From: Pseudomonadota bacterium | Lineage (GTDB): Bacteria > Pseudomonadota > Gammaproteobacteria > Steroidobacterales > Steroidobacteraceae | Length of the DNA: 46,133 nucleotides | Assembly (NCBI GenBank): GCA_947454465.1 | Contig: CANGJP010000012.1 | Coordinates: 1 to 46,133, forward strand | Direction of reading: 5' to 3' | Part shown: positions 292 to 45,498 of the stretch, piece by piece | How the letters are laid out: each line of letters begins with the position of its first letter | How positions within the stretch are numbered: position 1 is the first letter of the stretch | The notes under the pieces: generated by a model | The model's input: only the letters and a program-made list of their open reading frames with translations | What the model was told of the DNA's origin: nothing | Databases searched by the model: none | Translations under genes and position numbers: made by a program

Positions 292-849
292 TTACTGCCA
301 ATCCTTCACAATAAACTCTGGCTGCTCCTTGACCTGACTGTCGCTAATTTTAAGTTCCAAGTATTTGGAAGTCACACCCTTAGTGAAGGTCAAAGTAGTG
401 CCGCGCTTATAATCTCTCTGGTTAGGCCCCTTGCCCGTAAAAAACGCCACCAACTCATGCTCACCTACTTTTAGGTTGCCGATAAAAATACGCTGCACCC
501 CACCCTTTAACAGCGCCTGAGTCTCACGACTCGTATACAAATAATTTGCAACAGTTTTATCGTCTAATTTTAAAGTAACCGTATCCAAACCGAAAAAAGC
601 GCCCACATCCATTGAAACAAAGACGGCCACCTGGGTATCTGCCGGATAAAACAATTCCTCCTCCAACATCAACAAGTCTCGATTTAGATCGATAATTTCT
701 TTTTTTAAGGTTTGTACATCACGATCAATGGCAGTGAACTCAGTCTGGGTCAGATCAATCGAATTCACATCCTGAGCATGCGCAGGAATTCCAATTGAAA
801 CAATCACATACACCAGTGTAATGAAAAATAATTTCATATGGGACTTCAT
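292..849 (-). CDS. Exported hypothetical protein with a short coiled coil
   Basis: I do not recognise a named family. The start is uncertain: ATG codons lie at 867, 849 and 837, all leading into the same signal peptide (MKLFFITLVYVIVSIG, cleavage near AHAQ). The mature protein begins with a charged heptad-like segment (DRDVQTLKKEIIDLNRDLLM), probably a short coiled coil, followed by a beta-rich domain containing TVTLKLDDKTVANYLYT and a motif around GNLKVGEHELVAFFTGKG. This looks like a small periplasmic protein with an immunoglobulin-like fold. It is immediately upstream of the TPR-type exported protein on the same strand, so the pair probably form an operon and may act together in the envelope. 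The function is unknown. Confidence 0.7.
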   Translation of the reverse strand: MKSHMKLFFITLVYVIVSIGIPAHAQDVNSIDLTQTEFTAIDRDVQTLKKEIIDLNRDLLMLEEELFYPADTQVAVFVSMDVGAFFGLDTVTLKLDDKTVANYLYTSRETQALLKGGVQRIFIGNLKVGEHELVAFFTGKGPNQRDYKRGTTLTFTKGVTSKYLELKISDSQVKEQPEFIVKDWQ

Positions 850-867
850 TGAAGGTATCAATCTCAT

Positions 868-1210: not shown

Positions 1211-1243
1211 AAAAAAGGGTGAAGACCGTTAAGCCCTCACCCT
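1211..1243 (-). terminator. Rho-independent terminator of the repeat-peptide gene
   Basis: On the minus strand the 7-bp stem AGGGTGA / TCACCCT (1237-1243 with 1216-1222) is followed by a run of six T. It lies about 95 bp downstream of the stop of the repeat-peptide gene, in the right orientation to end that transcript. Confidence 0.65.
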
Positions 1244-1336
1244 CAAGTTCACGCAATAAACCGACTTATCGCTTCGAAACAATCACGAGCACTCTGCAAT
1301 CATAAAAGTCAAAGCAAGGTCAAAAGCCTAAAGCTT

Positions 1337-1579
1337 TTAGACGGAATAGATGTCAGCATGGGGAATACGGCCACCGGCTAACTTAACGTCAGCATGCGGA
1401 ATACGGCCACCGGCTAACTTAACGTCAGCATGCGGAATACGGCCACCAGCTAACTTAACGTCAGCATGCGGAATACGGCCACCAGCTAACTTAACGTCAG
1501 CATGCGGAATACGGCCACCGGCAAAAACCGGAGCAGCAGCTAAAACAATCGATGCAAATAAAAACAATGACTTACGCAT
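1337..1579 (-). CDS. Small secreted protein of five tandem 12-residue repeats
   Basis: An 80-residue protein. Residues 1-20 are a clear Sec signal peptide (MRKSLFLFASIVLAAAPVFA, with an A-x-A-like cleavage site). The rest is five head-to-tail copies of the unit AGGRIPHADVKL, the last ending in ADIYSV. If cleaved after VFA, the mature chain is four GGRIPHADVKLA units plus a terminal GGRIPHADIYSV. The repeats differ only at third codon positions, which supports real translation and selection on the peptide. The frame extends upstream to a possible start at 1624, but MRKSLFLF fits a signal peptide best. A terminator lies downstream and a CRP-type palindrome lies about 100 bp upstream. I know of no family with this repeat. 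It could be a precursor of a processed peptide, a metal- or ligand-binding repeat protein, or a structural peptide. Confidence 0.75.
   Translation of the reverse strand: MRKSLFLFASIVLAAAPVFAGGRIPHADVKLAGGRIPHADVKLAGGRIPHADVKLAGGRIPHADVKLAGGRIPHADIYSV
1352..1522. repeat. 36-bp tandem direct repeat, four full copies plus 27 bp
   Basis: Copies start at 1352, 1388, 1424, 1460 and 1496, head to tail with no spacers. They differ at only two positions: C/G at the tenth base of the first copy, and G/A in the Ala codon of copies three and four. Both are silent in the minus-strand reading frame. The array encodes the 12-residue repeats of the secreted protein. Confidence 0.95.
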
Positions 1580-1666
1580 GATTTTGTCATCCATATTTAT
1601 GGAAAGTAAACTGAAGTAGCTCAAATTCGAGTTTCCATAATAACAGGCTTTTTTTCATAAGTGTTA

Positions 1667-1694
1667 TTTATTTGTGACTTATGTCACAAATAAA
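1667..1694. promoter_or_regulatory. CRP-type binding site (TGTGA-N6-TCACA)
   Basis: The sequence TGTGACTTATGTCACA at 1673-1688 matches the CRP/Vfr consensus core exactly. The palindrome extends to 12-bp perfect arms (1667-1678 and 1683-1694) around a TTAT centre. It sits about 100 bp upstream of the repeat-peptide start. A possible minus-strand -10 element (TATTAT, 1638-1643) lies between them. Binding by a CRP-family regulator is inferred from the consensus only. Confidence 0.65.
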
Positions 1695-2198
1695 ATACTA
1701 AGCACCTTAGAGCTTTAGGAGGTCATGATGTTTTTTTATTTTTTTCATAATTATTTAACTCAATTCCATAATCTAAGATTTTTTGTGGGCTAGTTCCATG
1801 TTTTATTTAGCTGCCTCAGCCTAACTCAAGCACATACCCCCATGAAGCTATACCAATAAGTCCAATTAATTCATAAATTTATATGATTAATTTAAATATT
1901 TTTTACCATCCATTCTAACAACCGCATCGATCAATTTTTTTAGCCACCCCACCACCTCCAATCAAATTCACCGCAAAGCCCTGCTCTACGATCAGAATGA
2001 AATCCAAGGGATGTCTTAAAAACCTGACCTGACACACAGATTCATTCCAACCAATGCAGCGAAAATAGACTGCAAGATGATGTTTCTAATCGGGCTTCTT
2101 CAATTGGATTAGTTAATACACACCGTTTGCATACCCTGAAACCGAATCATTCCAGAGCTCACAAACACAATTCTCCACACCGCGCCCATCTAAGCAGC
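1695..2198. other. AT-rich intergenic region with one tiny ORF carrying a strong ribosome binding site
   Basis: No gene of normal size is visible before the kinase. At 1717-1722 there is a perfect AGGAGG, followed by ATG codons at 1725 and 1728 and a 22-codon phenylalanine-rich frame ending at 1793. This may be chance in AT-rich DNA or a small hydrophobic peptide. The region should also hold the promoter of the plus-strand kinase. An imperfect AT-rich inverted repeat lies around 1867-1895. Confidence 0.4.
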
Positions 2199-4913
2199 AT
2201 GAAAACCGTTACTCGCCGATGGGCACGAATCCAAGATTTATTTGGCCAAGTCGCCAACTTGCCCGAGAATGAACGTCGTAATTTTTTGCATGCTGAATGT
2301 GCCGACGACCCTGATTTAAGACAAGAAATGGAGAACCTGCTCACCGCAGAATCTCTCCTACCCAAAATTACTCCCCAAGCCACCGAAACCCGCCTGCTGA
2401 CTCGATCAAGTCGGGTGGAAAGAAATAAGGACAAACGGGCCAGACGCAGCAATGAGCTTATAGGCCATGTAATTGGCGCCTACCGCCTCAGCTCGATCCT
2501 AGGACAAGGCGGTGCCGGTACTGTGTACCTCGGTGAACGAGCAGATCGACAATACTCGGCGCAGGTAGCAATTAAGATTGTCGAAAATTCGTTGATCGAT
2601 AACGATGTTACAGATCGTTTTACCGCCGAACGGCAAATCCTAGCCAGCCTGAATCATCCTAATATAGCCCGCTTACTCGATGCCGGAGAAACGCGCACAG
2701 GACATCCTTACCTGGTGATGGAATATGTCCACGGCGAACCAATCGATCAATACTGTGACAGCAAGAGACTCGATATAACGCAACGACTGGAATTATTCCT
2801 TAAAGTTTGCTCAGCCGTTCAATACGCTCACCAAAACTTGATAGTCCACAGAGATATTAAGCCAGGAAACATTCTGGTGACGCCAGATGGCACACCAAAA
2901 CTACTCGATTTCGGCATCGCCAAACTTATCGACAACGGAGCCAAAGTATCAGTTAATGGTACCAAGCCTGGGCTGACACGTCACAACGACCGGGTATTGA
3001 CCCCAGAATACGCCAGTCCTGAACAAATTATTGGTGAACACATCACCACCGCCAGCGATGTTTATGCATTAGGAGTGGTGCTCTATCAGCTCTTATCTGG
3101 AAATCGCCCTTATGAAGTACACGCACTCAGCCAATTAGAACTTGAGCGCATCATCTGCATTCTCGATCCCCCTCGCCCCAGCCAGTTATTGACTCAGACC
3201 CTGAATAGACAAAATGCACCCATACCCGATTTAACCGCCATTACCTCAGCACGGCGCATCACTCCAAAGCGACTCCGGCAAGCATTGGTGGGTGATCTGG
3301 ATGCGATTATTTTACGCGCCTTACGCAAAGAACCTATCCAACGCTATAGATCGGTCGAGAAATTTACAGATGATATTCATCGCTATCTTGACCATGAACC
3401 CGTTGAGGCACGTCAAGGCAACTGGATTTATTACTCGAAACGATTCGTTTTTCGTCACACCCTAGGCGTATTCAGTGCCACACTGGCTCTATTGGCGCTG
3501 ATAGGGTTCAGTATTTTCGTCACCCTGCAGAACCAACGCATTACCGAACAGCGCGACCTGGCCACACAGGAAACGACGCGCGCCGAACATGTGTCTAACT
3601 TCATGCTCGAAGTATTCAGTAACGCCGATCCATTTACCAACCAAGGCAAAAACATCACCGCCAAAGAACTCTTGGACAAGGCGGGATTTCGATTAACCAA
3701 CGAAAACGAATTACATCAACAACCCGAAGTGAAAGCTAAGTTGCTGGAATCAATTGGGCGCGCCTATCAACGACAAAATCAACCCGATTTAGCGATTAAA
3801 TACCTGCAATTATCTCTGGGGATGCAACGGGCATTACCCAATACTCAGCACGAATCACTGGCAAACACACTTCAGTTTCTTGGTTCCGCACAAAAAGAAA
3901 AAGGACTGTATACGGAGGCCGAGGCGTCTCTTAAAGAAGCCCAATCCCTGCTTGAAAAAAATAAAAGAACCAACACTTCGACATATATCGAGGTGCTTTC
4001 TGAAATTGGTAGCCTTGAAATTTATCAAAGCAATCCAAGCCAAGCACTTCCACCATTGGAATTATCTTTGTCACTCGCCAGAAAAAAATACACGCCCAAC
4101 AACCCTAAAATAGCTTCTATTCTGATCAACCTTGCTCAATGTTATGGATGGATAAGCCAACTGGATAAAGCGACAAAGATAGCAAGGGAAGCTGTAAACA
4201 TTAGCCAACAGAGTCTACCTGAACATCACCCAGATCGCGCCATGGCCAATTATACAATTGGGGACTTATTGTCTCGCCAGGAAAAATACGCAGAAGCAGA
4301 GCCAACGATTGAGCAAGCACTAAAAAGTCAAGAAATATTATATGGGCCATCGAACCCGATACTAGCTAATACACTAGACGCGCTTGCGCTAATTAAATTG
4401 TCATTAAAAAAATACAATTTAGCAGAGTATTTTTCCAGAAAAGCGCTAACGATTACTCAAAATGGACTGGGTAAAGAAAACATTAATACCGTCTATTTCC
4501 ACTCAACACTAGCTTACATATTAATCTCAATTAAAAAATATCCCGAAGCAGAAAATCATCTCCAACGCGCCAGATCAATACTGATAAAAAATAATGCAAC
4601 AGACCATCAATACATGGCATCAGTAGAATATTTACTAGCAAAGTTACTGCATGAAACAAACCGGAATCAGCAAGCCGAATCTCTACTTATAAAAAACATC
4701 CAACACTGGCGAAAAAACAATTCTTCTGCATGGCGAACAGCTCGTTCTGAAAACTTACTTGGCGCAGTTCTGGTAAGCCTCAACAATAAATCAGAAGGAT
4801 TGGCCATGCTTAAGCGTTCCTATAAAGACCTAACTGAAATAAATAGTGAAGCCCCAAAACAAGTCGTTACCGAAGCCAGAGTCCAACTGCTGCAAGCAGG
4901 ATTAATCCCCTAA
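2199..4913 (+). CDS. Membrane Ser/Thr protein kinase with TPR sensor domain
   Basis: A Hanks-type kinase of about 904 residues. Residues 1-60 form the helical lead-in common in this proteobacterial group (RWARIQDLFGQVANLP...). The kinase domain follows: glycine loop GQGGAGTVY near 102, VAIK lysine near 126, catalytic HRDIKPGN from 217, DFG from 237 and the activation segment TPEYASPEQ. A single transmembrane helix lies at about 422-444. The rest is a long TPR array (for example LLESIGRAYQRQNQPDLAIK) that would face the periplasm and probably sense a ligand or partner. Start choice: ATG 2199 matches the usual family N terminus; an upstream ATG at 2127 would add 24 residues of low-quality sequence. 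All catalytic residues are present, so it should be active. Its substrates are unknown. The downstream SYLF gene follows after 96 bp. Confidence 0.9.
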   Translation: MKTVTRRWARIQDLFGQVANLPENERRNFLHAECADDPDLRQEMENLLTAESLLPKITPQATETRLLTRSSRVERNKDKRARRSNELIGHVIGAYRLSSILGQGGAGTVYLGERADRQYSAQVAIKIVENSLIDNDVTDRFTAERQILASLNHPNIARLLDAGETRTGHPYLVMEYVHGEPIDQYCDSKRLDITQRLELFLKVCSAVQYAHQNLIVHRDIKPGNILVTPDGTPKLLDFGIAKLIDNGAKVSVNGTKPGLTRHNDRVLTPEYASPEQIIGEHITTASDVYALGVVLYQLLSGNRPYEVHALSQLELERIICILDPPRPSQLLTQTLNRQNAPIPDLTAITSARRITPKRLRQALVGDLDAIILRALRKEPIQRYRSVEKFTDDIHRYLDHEPVEARQGNWIYYSKRFVFRHTLGVFSATLALLALIGFSIFVTLQNQRITEQRDLATQETTRAEHVSNFMLEVFSNADPFTNQGKNITAKELLDKAGFRLTNENELHQQPEVKAKLLESIGRAYQRQNQPDLAIKYLQLSLGMQRALPNTQHESLANTLQFLGSAQKEKGLYTEAEASLKEAQSLLEKNKRTNTSTYIEVLSEIGSLEIYQSNPSQALPPLELSLSLARKKYTPNNPKIASILINLAQCYGWISQLDKATKIAREAVNISQQSLPEHHPDRAMANYTIGDLLSRQEKYAEAEPTIEQALKSQEILYGPSNPILANTLDALALIKLSLKKYNLAEYFSRKALTITQNGLGKENINTVYFHSTLAYILISIKKYPEAENHLQRARSILIKNNATDHQYMASVEYLLAKLLHETNRNQQAESLLIKNIQHWRKNNSSAWRTARSENLLGAVLVSLNNKSEGLAMLKRSYKDLTEINSEAPKQVVTEARVQLLQAGLIP

Positions 4914-5009: not shown

Positions 5010-5837
5010 ATGCGCCAGCTTTATATTTTTTTGTGGTCTTCCCTGAGTGTACTTTTACTCGGCTTCAGCCCCAGTCAGGCGGCTGCCCCGCGTCAAGAAG
5101 CAACTCTTTTGAACGCAACACAAGTCTTAAGTGAGTTACTGAACGCACCAGACCAGAATGTTCCCCACTGGTTACTCGACCGAGCCTATGCAGTTGCCGT
5201 CTTACCGGAAGTCATTAAAGGCGGTTTGGTATTTGGTGGGCGGTATGGCTCAGGCGTCATGAGCCTTCGCCAACCCGATGGCAGTTGGAGCAACCCTGTC
5301 TTCATCACCATCGCAGGAGGCAGCTGGGGCTTTCAATTTGGCGTGCAATCCACTGATTTGATGCTGGTCTTCACTTCTAAGGCCAGCGTGGAAGGATTGA
5401 TTGGCGGCAAGGTCACTTTAGGTGCAGATGCGTCAGTCGCCGCCGGCCCGCTTGGTAGACAAGGCGCAGCAGCCACTGACATTGGCATGAATTCGCAAAT
5501 CTATTCTTACTCTCGCAATAAGGGCTTGTTTTTCGGAATCGCTTTGGACGGCTCAGCCATCAGCATCGACCATAAGGCCAATGCCAGTTACTACGAAAAG
5601 CCAGGCATCCTCGCCAGTGACATCACCTCACCTACTGCCAGCCACACCCACGAATCCGGTGAGAAATTCATTGCAACACTGCTGGGTCGATCTGTACCGC
5701 TAACCACGCCAACACCTCAGCCCGTAGCAACGCCGTCAACCCCGCCAGCCGCCAAATCCGAGCCCTCACCTCAAGCCAGCGGCTTGGTCACCTACCCTAT
5801 GGAAGATCAAAAGCCAGGCTCCGAGCCCCCTAAATAG
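5010..5837 (+). CDS. SYLF/Ysc84-domain exported protein
   Basis: A 275-residue protein with an N-terminal signal peptide (MRQLYIFLWSSLSVLLLG, cleavage near SQAAA). Residues about 35-200 match the SYLF (Ysc84) lipid-binding domain: AVAVLPEVIKGGLVFGGRYG, the repeated glycine-rich strands GGSWGFQFG, and LMLVFTSKASVEGLI then KVTLGADASVAAGP. The C-terminal 60 residues are Pro/Ser/Thr-rich and probably disordered. Bacterial SYLF proteins are thought to bind membrane lipids in the envelope, but their biological role is poorly known. An AGGA ribosome binding site precedes the ATG. It lies 96 bp after the TPR kinase on the same strand and is convergent with msrA. Confidence 0.88.
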   Translation: MRQLYIFLWSSLSVLLLGFSPSQAAAPRQEATLLNATQVLSELLNAPDQNVPHWLLDRAYAVAVLPEVIKGGLVFGGRYGSGVMSLRQPDGSWSNPVFITIAGGSWGFQFGVQSTDLMLVFTSKASVEGLIGGKVTLGADASVAAGPLGRQGAAATDIGMNSQIYSYSRNKGLFFGIALDGSAISIDHKANASYYEKPGILASDITSPTASHTHESGEKFIATLLGRSVPLTTPTPQPVATPSTPPAAKSEPSPQASGLVTYPMEDQKPGSEPPK

Positions 5838-20886: not shown

Positions 20887-20987
20887 CTGACCAGAAAACA
20901 TGCAAGCCTGTGAGATACTTCACATGCAGAAGACGTGGAAGCAGCAAAAAACAGCTTTTACGACTATTTAAGCTAATAATTCAGTCT

Positions 20988-37302: not shown

Positions 37303-37992
37303 CTATCGGATCGGCCTCCATACTGCCAATAATCGAGCGGCCTCCTCCAATTGCGCGGGGGTCATCAGTTTGGCAAGAGCGTCCTTACCCTTAACAGCTA
37401 CGTCACTGCCTTGAGCCGCCGCCAGACTCCACCACAGGTAGGATCGAACATAATCCTGAGATACCCCCAGGCCTTTTTCAAACATCACACCCAGCGCAGT
37501 TTGAGCCTTAAGATCGCCCTGACCTGCAGCAAGCAGATACCATTTAGCCGCCTCAGCTTCATCTTTGGTGACCCCAGTCCCCGCAGCATACATGCCCCCA
37601 AGATTGGACTGACCTTTGGCATAGCCTTGCTCGGCAGCACGTCGGTACCACTTGACGGCTTCAACGGGATCCTTGCCAATACCATTACCATTGACGTAAC
37701 GCACACCAAGAAATACCTGCGCTTTGGCATGACCTTGCTCTGCTGCCAACTTCCACCATTGAGTAGCTGCAGCATCGTCATCCAGTACCCCCTCGCCGTT
37801 ATCGTACATCCAACCCAGAAAGGTCTGCGCAAACGCATCCCCCTGCTTGGCATGATCAGTGAAAATGGACACCACCGTGGCGTAATCTTTTTTGTTATAG
37901 GCGACCACTGCAGCAGTGGTGCTTGCTGCCCATGATGACGAGAACAGCAGCACAGACATGAACACGAAAATCGTGATGTTAGAGCACTTCAT
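37303..37992 (-). CDS. Exported Sel1-repeat protein 1
   Basis: 229 residues. Signal peptide (ITIFVFMSVLLFSSSWAAS) and then Sel1-like repeats of about 36 residues (for example AQVFLGVRYVNGNGIGKDP, then VEAVKWYRRAAEQGYAKGQ). The C terminus LMTPAQLEEAARLLAVWRP is shared with the two other Sel1 proteins nearby. Sel1 repeats are TPR-like helical pairs that mediate protein contacts; the partner is unknown. The first repeat region (VVAYNKKDYATVVSIFTDHA) is closely similar to that of the third Sel1 gene, which indicates local duplication. Confidence 0.88.
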   Translation of the reverse strand: MKCSNITIFVFMSVLLFSSSWAASTTAAVVAYNKKDYATVVSIFTDHAKQGDAFAQTFLGWMYDNGEGVLDDDAAATQWWKLAAEQGHAKAQVFLGVRYVNGNGIGKDPVEAVKWYRRAAEQGYAKGQSNLGGMYAAGTGVTKDEAEAAKWYLLAAGQGDLKAQTALGVMFEKGLGVSQDYVRSYLWWSLAAAQGSDVAVKGKDALAKLMTPAQLEEAARLLAVWRPIR

Positions 37993-38020
37993 AGAGATAA
38001 ATTAAATTCTTATAGTTGTA

Positions 38021-38052
38021 AAAAACAAAAGGGATCAATGATTGATCCCTTT
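38021..38052 (-). terminator. Terminator, distal of two, after Sel1 gene 2
   Basis: Perfect 11-bp arms (AAAGGGATCAA / TTGATCCCTTT; 38028-38038 and 38042-38052) with a 3-base loop. On the minus strand it is followed by TGTTTTTTAC. Confidence 0.8.
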
Positions 38053-38099
38053 GAAAAACCAAACTCAGGCCTTGAATACCGCAGCAACTCAAGGCCTGA
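38053..38099 (-). terminator. Terminator, proximal of two, after Sel1 gene 2
   Basis: Perfect 11-bp arms (TCAGGCCTTGA / TCAAGGCCTGA; 38065-38075 and 38089-38099) followed on the minus strand by GTTTGGTTTTT. It starts 12 bp after the stop of the 258-residue Sel1 gene, in tandem with a second hairpin. Confidence 0.75.
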
Positions 38100-38111
38100 A
38101 GTAAGTGTTCC

Positions 38112-38888
38112 TTATTCTGCAGCCATGCCACCGGCACCCATGCCGCCTTCAGCACCCGCTGCCATACCACCGCCCATGCCGCCAGCACCCATGCCAGCTT
38201 CACCACCACCCATGGCATCAGCAGCAGGAGCAGGACCGGCTGCTGGAGCAGGCGCAGCGGATTTTGGCTTCCATTCGGCGGCCAAACGCTGACCTTCAGT
38301 CACTTCAGCAGGCGTCATGCGCTTAGCCAGCAAATCCACATTCTTGCCAGCCGTTACGTTGCCTTGCGCAGCACCCAAACTCAACCACATGTAGGCTTGG
38401 ACATTGTTACGCTCAATGCCGTCGCCGTTGGCGTAATGCACACCCAGATTAGTCTGAGCCTGAGCCACACCTTGATCGGCAGCGGCACGGTACCACTTGA
38501 CGGCTTGAGCAGCATCCTTCGATGTACCCTCACCCTTATCAAACTTCATACCCAAATTGGACTGAGCATAGTCATGCCCCTTTTCGGCAGCCTGGCTGTA
38601 CCACTTCACAGCCGCAGCGTCATCTTCAGACACGCCATCACCGATGTCGTACTTTACGCCAAGGTTAAATTGAGCCGTTGTATCACCTTGACCTGCTGAA
38701 ACCAACCATTTATCAGCGTTAGCCCCGTCCTGAATCACGCCCTTACGGCTATCATAAGCAAATGGAATGCTGGTTGGCTTGAGCGCAGTGGTATCCGGCG
38801 CACCTGCGGCATAAGACAGAAGCCCGATGGACGTCATCGATATAAACGTAGCAACGGCAATGACAGGTTTACTGAACTTAGTGGTCAT
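38112..38888 (-). CDS. Exported Sel1-repeat protein 2 with Gly/Ala/Met-rich tail
   Basis: 258 residues. The N terminus is a signal peptide (VIAVATFISMTSIGLLSYAAG). Residues about 55-185 hold Sel1 repeats (AQFNLGVKYDIGDGVSEDD; AQSNLGMKFDKGEGTSKDA; AQTNLGVHYANGDGIERNN). After the shared RMTPAEVTEGQRLAAEWKP segment comes a 48-residue low-complexity tail of Ala/Pro then Gly-Gly-Met repeats, which the paralogues lack. The tail recalls the GGM tail of GroEL but is probably just flexible. AGGGGAAA is a good ribosome binding site. Two tandem terminators follow, so it is likely an isolated, strongly expressed gene. Confidence 0.88.
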   Translation of the reverse strand: MTTKFSKPVIAVATFISMTSIGLLSYAAGAPDTTALKPTSIPFAYDSRKGVIQDGANADKWLVSAGQGDTTAQFNLGVKYDIGDGVSEDDAAAVKWYSQAAEKGHDYAQSNLGMKFDKGEGTSKDAAQAVKWYRAAADQGVAQAQTNLGVHYANGDGIERNNVQAYMWLSLGAAQGNVTAGKNVDLLAKRMTPAEVTEGQRLAAEWKPKSAAPAPAAGPAPAADAMGGGEAGMGAGGMGGGMAAGAEGGMGAGGMAAE

Positions 38889-39319
38889 TAAGATTTCCCC
38901 TTATACAATTTGAAGGCATCAACTTGTGCAGATTGTGAACCGCAAGTGAACTACTCGGCCATGCTCACACCCGTACTTACAATCGCCCAGCGACCTAAGG
39001 CTACAGGCACTGGCCGCATTATTGATCAGCTAGCCTAGAGCGACAAGACCAAAGATTGTAAAGGTATGTTCACTTCGGCTTGGTTTGTAAAGCGTTGCAG
39101 GCTTCGTGAGCTTAGCAATTTGGGTTGCAGCCAGCCTGAACGCAACAAAGACGCGGTTGTCAATCACGACAAAATGGCTTTAACGATAGTCAAATAAGGG
39201 CACTAGCAGGCCTAAATCTTACTTCAACCCTTTAGCCATTGGCTTATCACCACAGGAGATTTGAATCTGAAGTACAGACAACTTGAAACGAGGCTAAATC
39301 CACATCCTGTGGAAACCAC
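38889..39319. other. Intergenic region without a recognisable gene
   Basis: Between two Sel1 genes on the same strand. No coding frame, long repeat or strong hairpin is visible beyond a 6-bp inverted repeat (TCCACA / TGTGGA near 39300) after the third Sel1 gene. It should contain the promoter of the 258-residue Sel1 protein. Confidence 0.5.
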
Positions 39320-39919
39320 TTAACTGGTAGGCTTCCAACCCACTACCAAGCGTTCTGCCTCTTCGATTTGAGCCGGACTCATTTTCTTCACAAGAGCATC
39401 CCGAAGCGTCTTGGCTTTGCCGGCACCCCGATTGGCCGCAATACTCACCCACTTATAGGCCTGAACCAGATCTGCAGTGAGGCCCTCGCCCTTGTCGTAC
39501 ATCGCAGCCAGACTGACCTGTGCATTAACGTCTCCCAGTTCTGCGGCTCGAGTGAACCACTTTGCTGATTCAACGAGATCTTTTTGCACTCCATTACCGC
39601 TTGCATAACGAGTAGCTAGAAAAACTTGCGCTCTGACATGACCTTGATCTGCCGCTTTTCGAAACCACTTCACCGCCTCAGCATCGTTTTCAGGCACACC
39701 CTCGCCGTTGTCATACATCCAACCAATGAAGGTCTGAGCAAACGCGTCACCCTGATTGGCCATGTCAGTGAAGATTTTAAATACAGTGGCATAGTCTTTT
39801 CGATTGTAGGCAACAACGGCATCATCGGGCGTGGATGCAGCTTTTGAGGTCGAGGCAAAAGAGATCGAGGTAGAGACCGCCCATAGCAGCGCAATCACTT
39901 GATGTGTTTTTGTTTTCAT
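39320..39919 (-). CDS. Exported Sel1-repeat protein 3
   Basis: 199 residues. Signal peptide (MKTKTHQVIALLWAVSTSIS, cleavage near SFAS or SKAA). Sel1 repeats include AQTFIGWMYDNGEGVPEND and AQVFLATRYASGNGVQKDL. It ends with KMSPAQIEEAERLVVGWKP. Its first 100 residues are strikingly close to Sel1 protein 1 (QGDAFAQTF-GWMYDNGEGV in both), with one fewer repeat, so the pair arose by duplication with the divergent second gene between them. Function unknown. Confidence 0.88.
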   Translation of the reverse strand: MKTKTHQVIALLWAVSTSISFASTSKAASTPDDAVVAYNRKDYATVFKIFTDMANQGDAFAQTFIGWMYDNGEGVPENDAEAVKWFRKAADQGHVRAQVFLATRYASGNGVQKDLVESAKWFTRAAELGDVNAQVSLAAMYDKGEGLTADLVQAYKWVSIAANRGAGKAKTLRDALVKKMSPAQIEEAERLVVGWKPTS

Positions 39920-40182: not shown

Positions 40183-43100
40183 CTAGTTACAGGTCACGCT
40201 GACATTGGTCACATTACTTCCGCTCGGGTAGGTAGCGATGCTGCCCGAACCGGCACTCACCGCACAAGTCTGCCCAGCAGGTTGTGCCCCCAATGTAACC
40301 GCATAACTGCCACCATTTAGAGTAGTCGGGAAGGTAAAACTCCCGTTTGCAGATAATGTCAGTGGGGTACCGCTATTCAACATCAGCGTCACGTATTTAC
40401 CGGCAGCCAAACCAGATACAGAACCACTCACGGAGTAGTGGTTATACCCATACCCAATCGCCGGTGGAGCATCAGCAAAGCAATGATAAGGATTCACCGC
40501 ATCATCACCCGGAGCAGAAACAGAATATGGCTGCCCAGACGTCAAAGTATAGGTAAAAGCCACCTCTCCGTTAGCATGACCGGCCAATGAATCATACAAA
40601 GTCTTATTTGCATCAAGCATCAGATCAATGGCTCGATAGGTGCGTATGTATTGCAGCTTCAGCAACTGCGGTGATACCGTCACATAAACAAACCCAGCAC
40701 CAGGCTTTGTCTGACTCCAATTAGCATCATAGTTACCGTAAGCACCGGCATACTCACTCGGAAATGAAGGAATACTAGTAGGTGAATAAGCACTGCAATT
40801 GTAAGCCCAGTAACTATTGTCCGAAGGATTAGCTAAGGATTGATAGATCACGCCATCCACTTCTTCACGTGCAAAGGCGTGGTCATGTCCTTGGAAGAAC
40901 ACCGTGAATCCATTGGCTGCCTTGGTATCGACCAACAGTTGATGAATCGGCTTAGGCCAATTGGTTGTTACCAAGCAACCGGGCGATCCAGCGCACTGAC
41001 GATTTGTTTTGAACGCACCGCTCGAATCTCCACCCCACTCCCCAACCATGACATTACTTGCGCCACCACGACCGGTACCGTTGATATGGTGTGTGAAGAT
41101 GAACTTATATTTCTTAGTACTGTTCTCCAATACACTTTTCAACCAGAAATATTGAACATCACCCATCGTACGCTGCCAAGTGGTCACAGCCAAATCACTG
41201 AACAAGCCATTATCCACCGTATTGGGTGAATGCCAGTAAGGGTCAATAGTAATGAACAAGGCATCACCCCATTCAAAGGCATAGTAATCGCGCAATAAGC
41301 CATCACCATCCACACCGGGATAACCCAGTAAAGCCACATGGCCGGTCGCAAACGACTCAGTATCACCCGAATAAAAGCCGGAACCTGTTCGACTCCAGTT
41401 AGAATAAGGCACGGCTGTGGAGGCAGGCTTCGGTTGTGGATAAAACTTATTACGCGCCGACGCACCAAACACCGCATTGTTATTAAATATGGTTCCCAAA
41501 TTAGCCATACTTTCCTGTTCATGATTACCATTGACCATGTACAGGTGAGTCGAATGCGACATCAAGCCCAGATACTTCTGCCGCTGCTCTAGATAGGTTC
41601 CGTAACCTGCAGCAGTGCTATCTCCCTCACCGATTTTCACCTGATTAAAGGGATTAGGTACCGATGAGGCAGCACTATAAGTACTAAAAGCAGATAAAGA
41701 ACCACCTTTACCATACAATGCCAAGGTGTAACCCGTAGTAGCCGCATTCGCAAATACTGCACCAGTGGCTTTGTTATTAGTTTCAAAATTAGTTATAAAT
41801 TTCTCGGTACTAAAATCATCACCCAACATGAAATATAAGTCTGGCTGACGCTTAGCAATTTCAGCCATGGTCAACTGATACAGCTCTGAATGGAACATTT
41901 TGTCGCCAAAGCGTTCTGGATGGGAGTCACCCTGAACTCCAAAGCTAAACGTACTGCCAGCTGCACGCTGCGTATAGAACGAATGCTCATTACCACCAAC
42001 GAATGAGCCGGTTGGCGTTTTGTAATACACTCGATAGTAGTACTTGGTATTTGGGGTTAAGCCCGTCAACGGTACCTCAATCACTGGCTGAGTACTGCCC
42101 AATGGGTACGCTGTAGTTGGCGCAGTCACTGTGCTTGAAGAAGTATACAATCCACCCGAGGAAGTACTGTAATCCACATAAGCACTACCACCCCATGCAC
42201 TGGTAGGAGCCAACACACTGATGGTCACTGAGTTTTCGGTGGCCTGACCCAAAACAACGTTATAGTCCGTTGCTCCTGAAGCAACACACGTCACCACCAC
42301 GCTAGTAATATTATTACTGCCCATCAAACCAGAGCCATTGGTAACGGTACAGGTCTGTCCAACCGGTTGAGTATTGATAAACACCGAGTACAGGCCATTG
42401 GTCGCCAAGGCAGAACTGAAAGCAAAACTGCCGTTACCACTCACACTTAGGGTCTGCTTATCGGATTGCAGTACCAAACCTGCACCGGTTAAACCAGAAA
42501 CGTTACCCCCAACTTGGTAAGTGTTAGTACTGCAGGCCACACTAATCGAAGTGACATTAGCAGCGAGATTAGTTCCAGAATTATTAAACAGGAAACAAGT
42601 TTGACTGGATGGCTGCGTGGCGATCGTCACTGTATAACTTGTACCCACGTTCAGTGGGTTGGCAAACGTGAACGAACCGTTAGTAGAAATTGACTTAGTA
42701 TCCGTGCCGTTATTTAGCAATGTCACCGATTGCGTTAGGCCTGACACCGTACCGCCAATGGTAAACGTACGGTTATCCACCACACACACCACACTGACAT
42801 TGGAAATATTAGTACCACCACCGGGACTGGTTCCAGTGCCATTCGTCACTGTACACAGTTGCCCCAAAGGCTGTGATGATACAGTTACATTGTAAGCAGA
42901 ACCCATGATCACATTGGTACCAAAGGTGAAACCGCCATTGGTAAGCATGACATTATTATCGCCACCGTTATTCAGCAACGTTAATGACTGTCCAGTAGAT
43001 AGACCTAATAAAGAACCAGAAATTGAACTAGTTTGCTGAACCGTATTCACGCAGGTCACGTTAATATTGGTGATTGAGCTATTGGCAACGGTATTGGTAA

Positions 43101-45498
43101 TGATGCCACTGCCGTTGTATACCGCACAGGTTTGACCCGTAGGCTGACTGGCTACCGTCACGCTATACACCCCCCCCGCAACAATCGCACCTGATAATGG
43201 ATCTGTAGATTGAGTATAGAAAGCAGGATTCCATGGCATAGTAAAACGAGTGGTACCAGCCTTTAGCGTCACTGAATCACCTCCGCTGTCGGTCAGCACC
43301 AAGTTGCCAGCCAAGCCTGAAATACTTCCACCAATCGACACCGCATTAGGCACATTTTTGGGCGTCACGCATTGAATTTCATACGTCATGTTCGCCGTGG
43401 TGATCACGCCCGACGGATTAGTTATCGCACACTGACCTTTATTGGTGGTGCTTAATGTCAACGCAATCGAATACGCTGTGCCTATCGGCTTAGCAACTGA
43501 AAATGCAGTAATCGCAGTGGGGCCCGTGTCCGCCAGCACCACATTAGATTTCGTTTCGGAGCTGCTATCACCATAGGTCACCGTTATAGTGGCGCATGTC
43601 GCAGTGCCCGTGCAGGCGGTGCCTGTACCGAAGTGGCCGCCATTCATCGTGATTGAACCACTGATGGTATAGGTAGGTGAACCAGCCGCACATGAAACCA
43701 CCACACCCCATACGTTGGCAGTGATAGATGCACCCGAACCATTCGATACGACACACGTTTGTCCCGTCGGTTGCGTCCCTACCGTCACCGTATATGGTGA
43801 GCCTGCCGACACCGGCGTGGTGAACACAAAACTACCATTGCTCGAAACAGGCAGTGCGTTTCCTGCATTATTGAGCAAGGTCACCGTTTGACCCACAGTC
43901 AATCCAAACACATTGCCTGCAACTGTATAAGATGAAGAAGAACAACTCACCGTCACACCAGTGACGTTACCCGTAATGGGGCTCGGTATTGTCGTACCGG
44001 CCACCGTACAGGGGGAACTACTCTTTGATGCCGAAACAGACACGCCTGTATTGCCATAAGTGGTATTGAATGTGATGCCAGTGGCCGTGGATGGCGCATT
44101 GGTTTGGGTCGTACCAGTGATGGATACGGTTGCACCATCAGGGTTAGAGACACCCAGCGTGTAGACATTAGGCGTACAAGTGATACTAAGATTAGACACG
44201 TTAGCCACAATCGGATTGGTGATCGTACCGACCACAGAGCAAGCGTTACCGACCTTAGTCGCGGCTACGGTAACGCTTTCACCGTGTTTAGCAGTAAAAC
44301 CAAACGTTGCCGCTGTCGTGGCGCTGTTGGACACACTGCTGCCGCCAATCGAAACGCTGGCGCCGGTAGAGTTGGTGCCGGTAATCGTATAGGTGGTATC
44401 AGTACAATTGACTCCAACGTTTGTAACATTTGCAGTTGAAGCGGTACCCGATGGATTTATCAACGAACAGGTCTTGCCTGTAGGCTGCGTGGCTACCGTC
44501 ACACTATAAGACGTTCCGGCATTAATCGCGGTAGGGAAAGTAAAAGTACCATCGGCCGTAATCGTTTTGGCATCACCGCTATTGTTGTTAAGCACCAGGG
44601 TGCCCGTACCCAAGCCAGAGACAGTGCCGCCAATAGTGTAGGTCGTGGGACTGGTACTGCAGGTCACCAACACCGACGAGACATTGGTACTACCCACAGT
44701 GCCACTACCCGTACCGATATTAACAACGCAGTTTTGACCCGTAGGTTGAGCCGCTACGGTAACGCTATACGCCGAACCTGAAGCCAGTGATGTTGAAAAA
44801 GTGAAGGTTGACGCTCCACTAGCCACTGTTTTCGTTGCGCCACCATTCAAATTCAAAATCAAGCCCGCTGCGGTCAGACCGGACACCGTCCCGCCAATGG
44901 TGTAACTCCTTACGCAAGACACGGCCACATTCGTGATATTGGCATTGGCCATGGTGCCCGATCCGGTTCCACTACCACCGCCTGTCACCGTACACAGATA
45001 GCCCGTGGGTTGAATACCAACTTTGACTTCATACGCAGAACCTGAGATCACGCCAGTAGCAAATTTGAACGACGTGGCGCCACTAGGAATAACAAGGTTG
45101 GCGGAATTATTGAGCTTAAGCACTAGGCCTGCTACCGACAACCCCGAAACCGTACCACTAACCATATACGCCGAAACACAGCTCACACCGACATTGGTGA
45201 CATTAGCCGTAATGCTGCTGCCGGAAGCATTGCTCACTGCACACTGCAATCCCGCAGGTTGAATCGCTACCGTCACATTCCATGGTGTGGACGCAGCCTG
45301 AGCCGGAAATACAAAACCACCGATAGCGGTCACATTCAACGTGCTTGAATTATTTTTAAGGACTACCGATTTACCTGCAGGTAAACCAGAAATATTCCCC
45401 GCCACTGTGTACGTGGCGGCTTGCGCCTGGGTACCACTCATCACACCCAATACCATTAGCGCGACGCATACCAGCCACTTATTAAGCCCCAACTTCAT
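40183..45498 (-). CDS. Giant secreted metallophosphoesterase with 13 cysteine-paired repeats
   Basis: 1771 residues. A signal peptide (LVCVALMVLGVMSGTQAQA) is followed by about 12 repeats of 75-110 residues (about 28-1078) with the pattern GGTVSGL...LNN...G.FTF...YSVTVATQPTGQTC...NVTNVSVTC, each with two Cys likely to form a disulfide. Repeats 5, 6 and 8 are divergent. Next come a purple-acid-phosphatase-like/FnIII domain (about 1080-1180; LTPNTKYYYRVYYKT) and a calcineurin-like phosphoesterase domain (about 1185-1560) with all metal motifs: GDSHPE, GDD, GNHE, HH and GHDH. One more repeat ends the protein (about 1686-1771). No anchor, RTX or autotransporter domain is seen, so it is periplasmic or released by an unrecognised route. 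Substrate is unknown; extracellular phosphate scavenging is a guess. Confidence 0.9.
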   Translation of the reverse strand: MKLGLNKWLVCVALMVLGVMSGTQAQAATYTVAGNISGLPAGKSVVLKNNSSTLNVTAIGGFVFPAQAASTPWNVTVAIQPAGLQCAVSNASGSSITANVTNVGVSCVSAYMVSGTVSGLSVAGLVLKLNNSANLVIPSGATSFKFATGVISGSAYEVKVGIQPTGYLCTVTGGGSGTGSGTMANANITNVAVSCVRSYTIGGTVSGLTAAGLILNLNGGATKTVASGASTFTFSTSLASGSAYSVTVAAQPTGQNCVVNIGTGSGTVGSTNVSSVLVTCSTSPTTYTIGGTVSGLGTGTLVLNNNSGDAKTITADGTFTFPTAINAGTSYSVTVATQPTGKTCSLINPSGTASTANVTNVGVNCTDTTYTITGTNSTGASVSIGGSSVSNSATTAATFGFTAKHGESVTVAATKVGNACSVVGTITNPIVANVSNLSITCTPNVYTLGVSNPDGATVSITGTTQTNAPSTATGITFNTTYGNTGVSVSASKSSSPCTVAGTTIPSPITGNVTGVTVSCSSSSYTVAGNVFGLTVGQTVTLLNNAGNALPVSSNGSFVFTTPVSAGSPYTVTVGTQPTGQTCVVSNGSGASITANVWGVVVSCAAGSPTYTISGSITMNGGHFGTGTACTGTATCATITVTYGDSSSETKSNVVLADTGPTAITAFSVAKPIGTAYSIALTLSTTNKGQCAITNPSGVITTANMTYEIQCVTPKNVPNAVSIGGSISGLAGNLVLTDSGGDSVTLKAGTTRFTMPWNPAFYTQSTDPLSGAIVAGGVYSVTVASQPTGQTCAVYNGSGIITNTVANSSITNINVTCVNTVQQTSSISGSLLGLSTGQSLTLLNNGGDNNVMLTNGGFTFGTNVIMGSAYNVTVSSQPLGQLCTVTNGTGTSPGGGTNISNVSVVCVVDNRTFTIGGTVSGLTQSVTLLNNGTDTKSISTNGSFTFANPLNVGTSYTVTIATQPSSQTCFLFNNSGTNLAANVTSISVACSTNTYQVGGNVSGLTGAGLVLQSDKQTLSVSGNGSFAFSSALATNGLYSVFINTQPVGQTCTVTNGSGLMGSNNITSVVVTCVASGATDYNVVLGQATENSVTISVLAPTSAWGGSAYVDYSTSSGGLYTSSSTVTAPTTAYPLGSTQPVIEVPLTGLTPNTKYYYRVYYKTPTGSFVGGNEHSFYTQRAAGSTFSFGVQGDSHPERFGDKMFHSELYQLTMAEIAKRQPDLYFMLGDDFSTEKFITNFETNNKATGAVFANAATTGYTLALYGKGGSLSAFSTYSAASSVPNPFNQVKIGEGDSTAAGYGTYLEQRQKYLGLMSHSTHLYMVNGNHEQESMANLGTIFNNNAVFGASARNKFYPQPKPASTAVPYSNWSRTGSGFYSGDTESFATGHVALLGYPGVDGDGLLRDYYAFEWGDALFITIDPYWHSPNTVDNGLFSDLAVTTWQRTMGDVQYFWLKSVLENSTKKYKFIFTHHINGTGRGGASNVMVGEWGGDSSGAFKTNRQCAGSPGCLVTTNWPKPIHQLLVDTKAANGFTVFFQGHDHAFAREEVDGVIYQSLANPSDNSYWAYNCSAYSPTSIPSFPSEYAGAYGNYDANWSQTKPGAGFVYVTVSPQLLKLQYIRTYRAIDLMLDANKTLYDSLAGHANGEVAFTYTLTSGQPYSVSAPGDDAVNPYHCFADAPPAIGYGYNHYSVSGSVSGLAAGKYVTLMLNSGTPLTLSANGSFTFPTTLNGGSYAVTLGAQPAGQTCAVSAGSGSIATYPSGSNVTNVSVTCN

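Follow-up and report, generated by a model that had tools for sequence, protein, structure and literature searches.

A gene for a small secreted protein made of a signal peptide and tandem repeats is paired, on the evidence of sequence and gene order, with one clade of transmembrane Ser/Thr kinases that carry TPR ectodomains (STPK-TPR kinases). A differing repeat protein lies at the same spot beside this one kind of receptor kinase in relatives, and it may therefore be the receptor's missing signal. We put at about 0.45, a little short of even odds, the reading in which the repeat polypeptide acts as a secreted, multivalent ligand for the receptor kinase encoded divergently from it, to which we infer that it binds.

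A secreted tandem-repeat gene in the window

The window (the whole stretch of DNA analysed, 46,133 nucleotides) is the complete contig C12 of a genome of 2.14 Mb that is held in 87 contigs and is 93.5% complete. The features referred to below are:

1337..1579, minus strand: secreted tandem-repeat polypeptide gene, 80 aa, assigned from the ORF (ATG at 1579, stop at 1339-1337) and its syntenic family
1520..1579, minus strand: signal peptide of 20 residues with predicted cleavage after VFA, assigned from the sequence by a simple rule
1340..1519, minus strand: repeat array, with units at 1519-1484, 1483-1448, 1447-1412 and 1411-1376 and a partial unit at 1375-1340
1215..1244, minus strand: intrinsic-terminator-like hairpin
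1656..1688, minus strand: promoter-like element TGTGACATAAGTCACA-N7-AACACTTATG, in which N7 is aataaat and the second box starts 86 nt before the ATG
2127..4913 (likely start 2199), plus strand: PknS-like transmembrane Ser/Thr kinase with a predicted extracytoplasmic TPR solenoid, the divergent partner gene
292..867, minus strand: conserved secreted protein of 191 aa, encoded downstream of the repeat gene and used as a syntenic marker
5010..5837, plus strand: Ysc84-like secreted protein, downstream of the kinase at many clade loci

The stretch 1337-1579 is a real ORF on the minus strand. The original prediction had placed it correctly, and its description of a signal peptide plus repeats and little else is borne out by the protein, which reads MRKSLFLFASIVLAAAPVFA, four copies of GGRIPHADVKLA and then GGRIPHADIYSV. 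The five units that had been counted are slightly generous: four are full, and the fifth retains the first eight residues. TRF reports a 36-bp array of 4.8 copies with 97% match and a score of 321, and the window has a single further array in its output, with a score of 53. Hydropathy and an AxA-like rule, rather than a dedicated predictor, were used to call the signal peptide. The terminator ascribed to the gene corresponds to the hairpin at 1244-1215, and no second copy of the repeat gene was found in the same genome at E<=10. Elsewhere in the window, 40183-45498 encodes a very large secreted protein in which similar domains recur many times and in which a metallophosphatase-like part can be made out by eye, and 37303-39919 encodes three neighbouring secreted proteins with repeats that look Sel1-like by eye.

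The four full units differ at one base, silently, and the stretch that they share with unit 5 holds one further silent change (CCG/CCC); unit 5 then diverges, and the between-unit differences of the array come to 3 silent and 1 replacement. Taken alone, the window is weak evidence for the selection on the peptide that had been read from it; the evidence becomes strong when 26 related arrays are pooled. With units compared at the repeat offset, the ORF frame gives a pS of 0.303 and a pN of 0.028 (ratio 0.09) and has no stops, although single arrays vary (pN 0.129 to pS 0.383 in G153; 0.058 to 0.124 in G190). The other frames give ratios of 1.8 to 6, except for one antisense frame (0.17) which has stops. 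By this codon-level measure, purifying selection acts on the units within each array set.

These data also bear on whether the minus-strand gene has been read correctly. The chance that there is no gene here but a DNA repeat, or that the gene lies on the plus strand (ORF 1350-1619, with GIRPPANLTSAC units), is negligible. The plus strand is also open and its GIRPP resembles the GGIRPP unit of G019, but this ORF does not begin with a signal peptide, and in the pooled arrays the ORF frame alone is both stop-free and lowest in pN/pS. It is the minus ORF that has the signal and the terminator-like hairpin, as well as the promoter-like element and the divergent orientation seen in relatives, and on these grounds the plus-strand gene was rejected.

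Linkage of the repeat gene to one kinase clade

The gene had been called an orphan, a description that passed over the divergent Ser/Thr kinase gene with a TPR ectodomain about 0.6 kb away. The product of this gene has Pfam matches to Pkinase and TPR, contains VAIK, HRDIKPGN and DFG, and has a single hydrophobic helix, which starts at residue 422 of 904 and follows basic residues; from this sequence layout the kinase domain would lie inside and the TPR part outside. A structure model of the ectodomain is a TPR solenoid (mean pLDDT 86.9, pTM 0.82), with lower confidence over the first ~90 residues, which include the TM helix; the part beyond that helix is encoded by about 3585-4910. Among solved structures, the closest in sequence are kinesin light chains, some complexed with cargo peptides, and an engineered TPR; the closest by fold are APPBP2 in complex with an RxxGP degron and structures of KLC1, followed by other TPR proteins.

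Searching for relatives, as had been proposed, gave no homologue by similarity; gene order, on the other hand, gave repeat ORFs with differing units in relatives. The window peptide found no relative in viral and genome contigs. Matches at E<=0.1 occurred in 38 of 98 genomes, its own included, and were judged to reflect chance or composition, except for those in L002 and L003. These two are the best-scoring non-self matches (E 6e-5 and 1.6e-4) and lie in lipoproteins with LPDVDV/GGQLP repeats; they are longer, with a lipoprotein-like signal and no clade kinase noticed there, and we judged them unrelated, their repeats being real but different. Both proteins (L002 1336-1803; L003 1291-1743) come from other families of the order and carry LPDVDV and GGQLPxF repeats. 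The peptide of G003 matched 6 of 200 genomes at E<=0.01, itself included, and three of the other five matches (L068, L069, L072) were set aside as repeats within or beside subtilase genes; the subtilase-like proteins concerned, from one genus of the family, have terminal YLWNTG repeats. Matches by tblastn in plasmids and phages were below 60% identity and were judged to be other repeats, and a viral scan with the G152b peptide gave none. Ten peptides scanned against Pfam and NCBIfam, and the degenerate G134 member scanned against Pfam only, gave no match above the curated cut-off with a placed domain; GST_N_2 on L086 had a whole-protein score above the cut-off, no placed stretch, and was judged spurious. 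In agreement with the original prediction, no described family was found in Pfam, in NCBIfam or among the papers listed by a literature search.

By synteny, a secreted tandem-repeat ORF was found upstream of, and divergent from, the genes orthologous to the neighbouring kinase gene. Two genus mates (G002 and G003) have the ORF in the same slot, with the Ysc84 and MsrA genes in the same order; that of G003 reads MRKLMIGMVSVAAVLAAGVVG followed by VTKLPRV-based units, and that of G002 has two LAAIRLPR units. Loci found through the kinase in other genera have the units ASSPGGIRPPQVL (G019), DGSGGGKRPVLQLA in eight copies (G030), DGTTVPLPPKFM (G014), DAHPANPPRFAVQ (G005) and, at the two loci of G006, AVSLPPSRPPAQV and AQFAAENNPPMRPL; further array types in the family are ADGDTGGKRPVL, AGDTGGAKRPLL, ADGVVGGKRPLL, ADETAGGKRPLF and DSPPTSPPRAIVM. 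Peptides distant from kinases were sought by similarity only. Output of the ORF filter that we set aside comprised low-complexity ORFs in L142 (ATG) and L135 (TTG), short GTG-start ORFs in L044, L091 and L127, and alternative-frame or antisense ORFs inside the arrays of L119, L122, L129, L130, L131 and L134. At many loci the repeat gene is followed by another small secreted ORF, of 64-75 aa (L084 3529-3756, L045 11524-11751, L147 2281-2499, L146 1492-1686 and others), and none was seen in the window. The 191-aa secreted protein is probably outside the system.

The kinase search gave 48 matches at E<=1e-140 in 217 genomes of the family; at most four candidates per genome were scored in this search, and at most two in a wider STPK-TPR search, and rich genomes may hold further clade kinases. 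The clade has 38 members, 34 placed by the tree and four (G153, two in G001, and G178:C115) by similarity or neighbours. Six of their loci could not be assessed, having a start at a contig edge (G166, G098:C37, G201, G001 twice and G178:C115). A repeat peptide was present at 32/32 of the assessable clade loci: 26 have clear arrays; three have arrays cut by the contig end (G122, and G133 twice); and three are degenerate, with two units in G002 (of the window's own genus), about three in G134 and one in G178. No repeat ORF was found at other STPK-TPR loci (0/50) in the upstream stretches fetched, with ATG starts alone considered for 40 of these loci and part of the remaining ones. The 50 consist of ten less similar matches (nine of the 48, and G000:C1) and 40 further STPK-TPR loci from several families of the order; the latter are those examined of about 55 unlinked matches of the wider search, three with less than 2.4 kb. 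G045:C5, a match of the first search that lies at a contig edge, was left out. The comparison of 32/32 with 0/50 has a Fisher p of about 2e-23, not corrected for relatedness.

In a tree of 55 kinases (a quick search with no bootstrap), 31 linked and three unassessable kinases are split from 21 unlinked ones by a branch with SH-aLRT 100, and peptide linkage maps onto it as one change when the unassessable rows are left out. The tree does not include G153 (a partial kinase, counted), the two of G001, n_G133 or G178:C115. Nine of 36 clade kinase sequences, two of them partial, fail one of three simple catalytic patterns; that of the window passes.

Where a genome has several clade kinases there is one peptide gene for each assessable kinase, and each has its own unit (three in G111; two each in G006, G143, G152, G160 and G172; two, cut, in G133). 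Across genomes, orthologues share an identical or nearly identical unit. In the close pair G152b and G160b a V/T difference (DGVVGGKRP versus DGTVGGKRP) recurs in every copy shown, a case of concerted change. Unit distance tracks kinase distance (Mantel r 0.70-0.72, from unit consensuses typed by eye that are not verbatim for G143a, G172a and G098a). Hypervariability of the TPR part, as a sign of co-evolution, was not found: identity in the TPR and kinase parts is 0.41 versus 0.65 among linked kinases and 0.36 versus 0.59 among unlinked ones, and the partial Mantel test singles out no TPR effect (TPR given kinase 0.24; kinase given TPR 0.30). Unit change thus follows the whole kinase rather than its TPR part, as simple co-inheritance would give.

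The units are 9-16 residues long, mostly 12-14, and differ in sequence between lineages. All 30 listed units have a Pro directly beside K, R or H, compared with a mean of 12.2 and a maximum of 21 in shuffles; for 20 representative units the figure is 20/20, reached in 0/3000 shuffles. This rule was noticed first and tested afterwards, and the 30 units leave out G134 and G178, take three from the TRF consensus of contig-cut arrays and include many close relatives. The window gene has the same form as its relatives, a signal peptide and then tandem units with Pro beside K/R/H. Metal binding, which had been named as one possibility on the strength of a His and an Asp in each unit, does not characterise the family, His being present in 5/30 listed units and Cys in 0/30.

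Composition also bears on what else the repeat could be. Its linkage to a Ser/Thr kinase would fit a phosphorylation substrate of that kinase, but its predicted export would take the polypeptide away from the cytoplasmic kinase domain, and Ser, Thr and Tyr are absent from 8/30 listed units. The unit of the window is among these eight, so that for it the idea was rejected as close to refuted by sequence; we consider it very improbable overall. Unlikely, though less so, is an antimicrobial or modified (RiPP-like) precursor that is cut into identical units. The mature region consists of repeats only, and the first unit starts at or within three residues of a signal-peptidase-like site in 19/29 loci, by a simple rule that often finds several sites per protein. 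Pro/Arg-rich units also recall proline-rich antimicrobial peptides. Against such a precursor, no modifying enzyme, protease, immunity gene or exporter was seen among the window ORFs, much as the original prediction had noted (four neighbours were domain-scanned, and other loci were probed with chosen markers); basic and acidic residues are often balanced in number (41 and 40 in G172a); Cys occurs in no listed unit; and the tie to a receptor kinase is left unexplained.

Promoter-like element and ECF43-type sigma genes

Most of the peptide ORFs are preceded by TGTGACGGGAATCACA-N7-GTCGCTTATG, of the form TGTGA-N6-TCACA-N7-GTCGCTTATG. The best match has a 7-nt gap in 22/29 loci when gaps of 2-13 are allowed, and its score exceeds all 20 shuffles of the locus in 23/29 (the exceptions being G002, G111b, G111c, G190, G099 and G195); the consensus was read from these same loci, which makes the scores partly circular and the fixed 7-nt gap less so. 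In the window the dyad and CTTATG are exact and GTCG reads AACA, for a score of 19/26 against a shuffled maximum of 18. A scan of the window with a pattern written after seeing the site has an expectation of 0.03 at two mismatches, and a second two-mismatch match lies at 20892-20924. In 26 whole genomes the commonest form has 16 matches, 14 of them at peptide genes, and a reversed control has 1; it has no match in 12 of the 26, that of the window included. The remaining two matches (L174 and L175), from two genomes, are orthologous to each other and stand ahead of an unrelated ORF of 292-294 aa.

At 20/32 assessable clade loci the kinase has an ECF43-like sigma gene next to it. QxTA is present in 20/20 of these sigma genes (19 QATA, 1 QPTA), and the one scanned, that of G134, matches PF07638/TIGR02999. 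ECF43 factors have a QTTA motif with a phosphorylated Thr, according to the text seen of PMC13147305. No ECF43-type sigma gene adjoins the kinase in the window, and none was found in its genome; at E<=1e-8 there is none in G000, G002 and G003, and G001 has one match of 41% elsewhere. The other 12/32 loci, mostly 'b' paralogues, have no adjoining sigma gene, and peptide and kinase are still paired there. Since G000, G002 and G003 keep the peptide and the kinase with no such sigma factor found in them, the link is more than that of a sigma factor to its target.

A sigma gene beside the kinase is the layout of EcfK-PknS (Xanthomonas citri), which like EcfP-PknT (Vibrio parahaemolyticus) pairs an ECF43-type sigma factor with a Hanks-type receptor kinase; it is matched at the 20 clade loci above, in contrast to the genome of the window. 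PknS is described, in the portion of PMC13147305 consulted, as having an N-terminal extension, a cytoplasmic kinase, a TM helix and periplasmic TPRs, and the window kinase has the same architecture. The secreted repeat polypeptide, present at the clade loci, is absent from the descriptions of both systems in the portions consulted of PMC13147305 and PMC8999054. Among the matches listed by an open-access literature search, none had a title or abstract dealing with a peptide of this kind beside such a kinase. The kinase-sigma cassette is already known, and as far as these searches go the repeat polypeptide has not been described as its third part.

The promoter and sigma data raise the main and serious rival to the ligand reading, one that we think possible at clearly less than an even chance: the repeat polypeptide would be an output, a secreted effector or envelope-protecting polymer switched by the kinase, via an ECF43-type sigma factor in many relatives and another regulator here, whose units drift as it is mainly their bulk properties that matter. 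The element is nearly specific to the peptide gene (the 14 of 16 matches, with 12 genomes lacking any), and ECF43-STPK systems drive defence outputs, namely T6SS against amoebae and polymyxin resistance, in the consulted text of PMC13147305 and PMC8999054. At the six loci examined in family f7 (L186, L191, L193, L194, L196 and L183), the gene that follows a similar element is a divergent ORF of 59-74 aa, non-secreted and with a conserved DHANK...NP motif, and the two of these ORFs that were scanned have no Pfam or NCBIfam match. An unrelated, non-secreted ORF of about 60 aa behind the element suggests that the divergent gene may simply be a target of the pathway. Bulk properties do not, however, explain the tight conservation of units within arrays (pN/pS 0.09) or the Pro-basic core, and an output via the sigma factor sits poorly with the pairing of peptide and kinase at the 12 loci that have no adjoining sigma gene and in three genomes where none was found.

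A candidate ligand for the receptor kinase

In the ligand reading, the mature polypeptide, whole or cut into units, would reside in the periplasm, where its Pro/basic units would bind the groove of the TPR solenoid; several copies of the unit could then cluster receptors and so switch the cytoplasmic kinase, on or off. Where an ECF43-type sigma gene adjoins, the kinase would phosphorylate the sigma factor, which may drive the peptide promoter in a positive feedback. The signal, the repeats, their selection, the linkage and the promoter-like element are read directly from the genomes; export, binding, clustering and feedback would follow from the model. Evidence against it comes from the degenerate peptides at three clade loci (G002, G134 and G178) and from the TPR part, whose divergence does not exceed that among unlinked kinases. 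TPR solenoids are common and bind many things, and no processing enzyme for the repeat polypeptide was identified.

Two known peptide-binding TPR solenoids close to the ectodomain in sequence or fold are kinesin light chain with its cargo peptides and APPBP2 with the RxxGP degron, which differ in having no kinase and no secreted repeat ligand; both are eukaryotic and cytoplasmic. A secreted peptide with a dedicated receptor is found in the RRNPP TPR receptors and agr-type systems of Firmicutes, where the genes are often adjacent, and in plant peptide hormones with their receptor-like kinases. The receptors are cytoplasmic regulators in RRNPP systems and histidine kinases in agr systems, and those of plants have ectodomains of other kinds, whereas here a Hanks-type kinase with a TPR ectodomain would be combined with a tandem-repeat polypeptide. 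We tentatively propose, at somewhat short of an even chance, a bacterial peptide-hormone system in which the exported tandem-repeat polypeptide is a dedicated, fast-changing multivalent ligand of a TPR-ectodomain Hanks-type kinase, with a private unit for each paralogue and a gene driven by the sigma factor where one is present.

The results show that synteny can recover fast-changing repeat peptides that similarity search misses. The periplasmic part of PknS has been suggested to inhibit auto-activation, and the consulted part of PMC13147305 leaves the route of activation, via the periplasmic TPR, to future work; the repeat polypeptide is a candidate ligand for one clade of PknS-like kinases, and it can be made synthetically. 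Should it bind, a bacterial Hanks-type receptor kinase would have a peptide ligand, and the paralogous pairs within one genome would allow tests of specificity.
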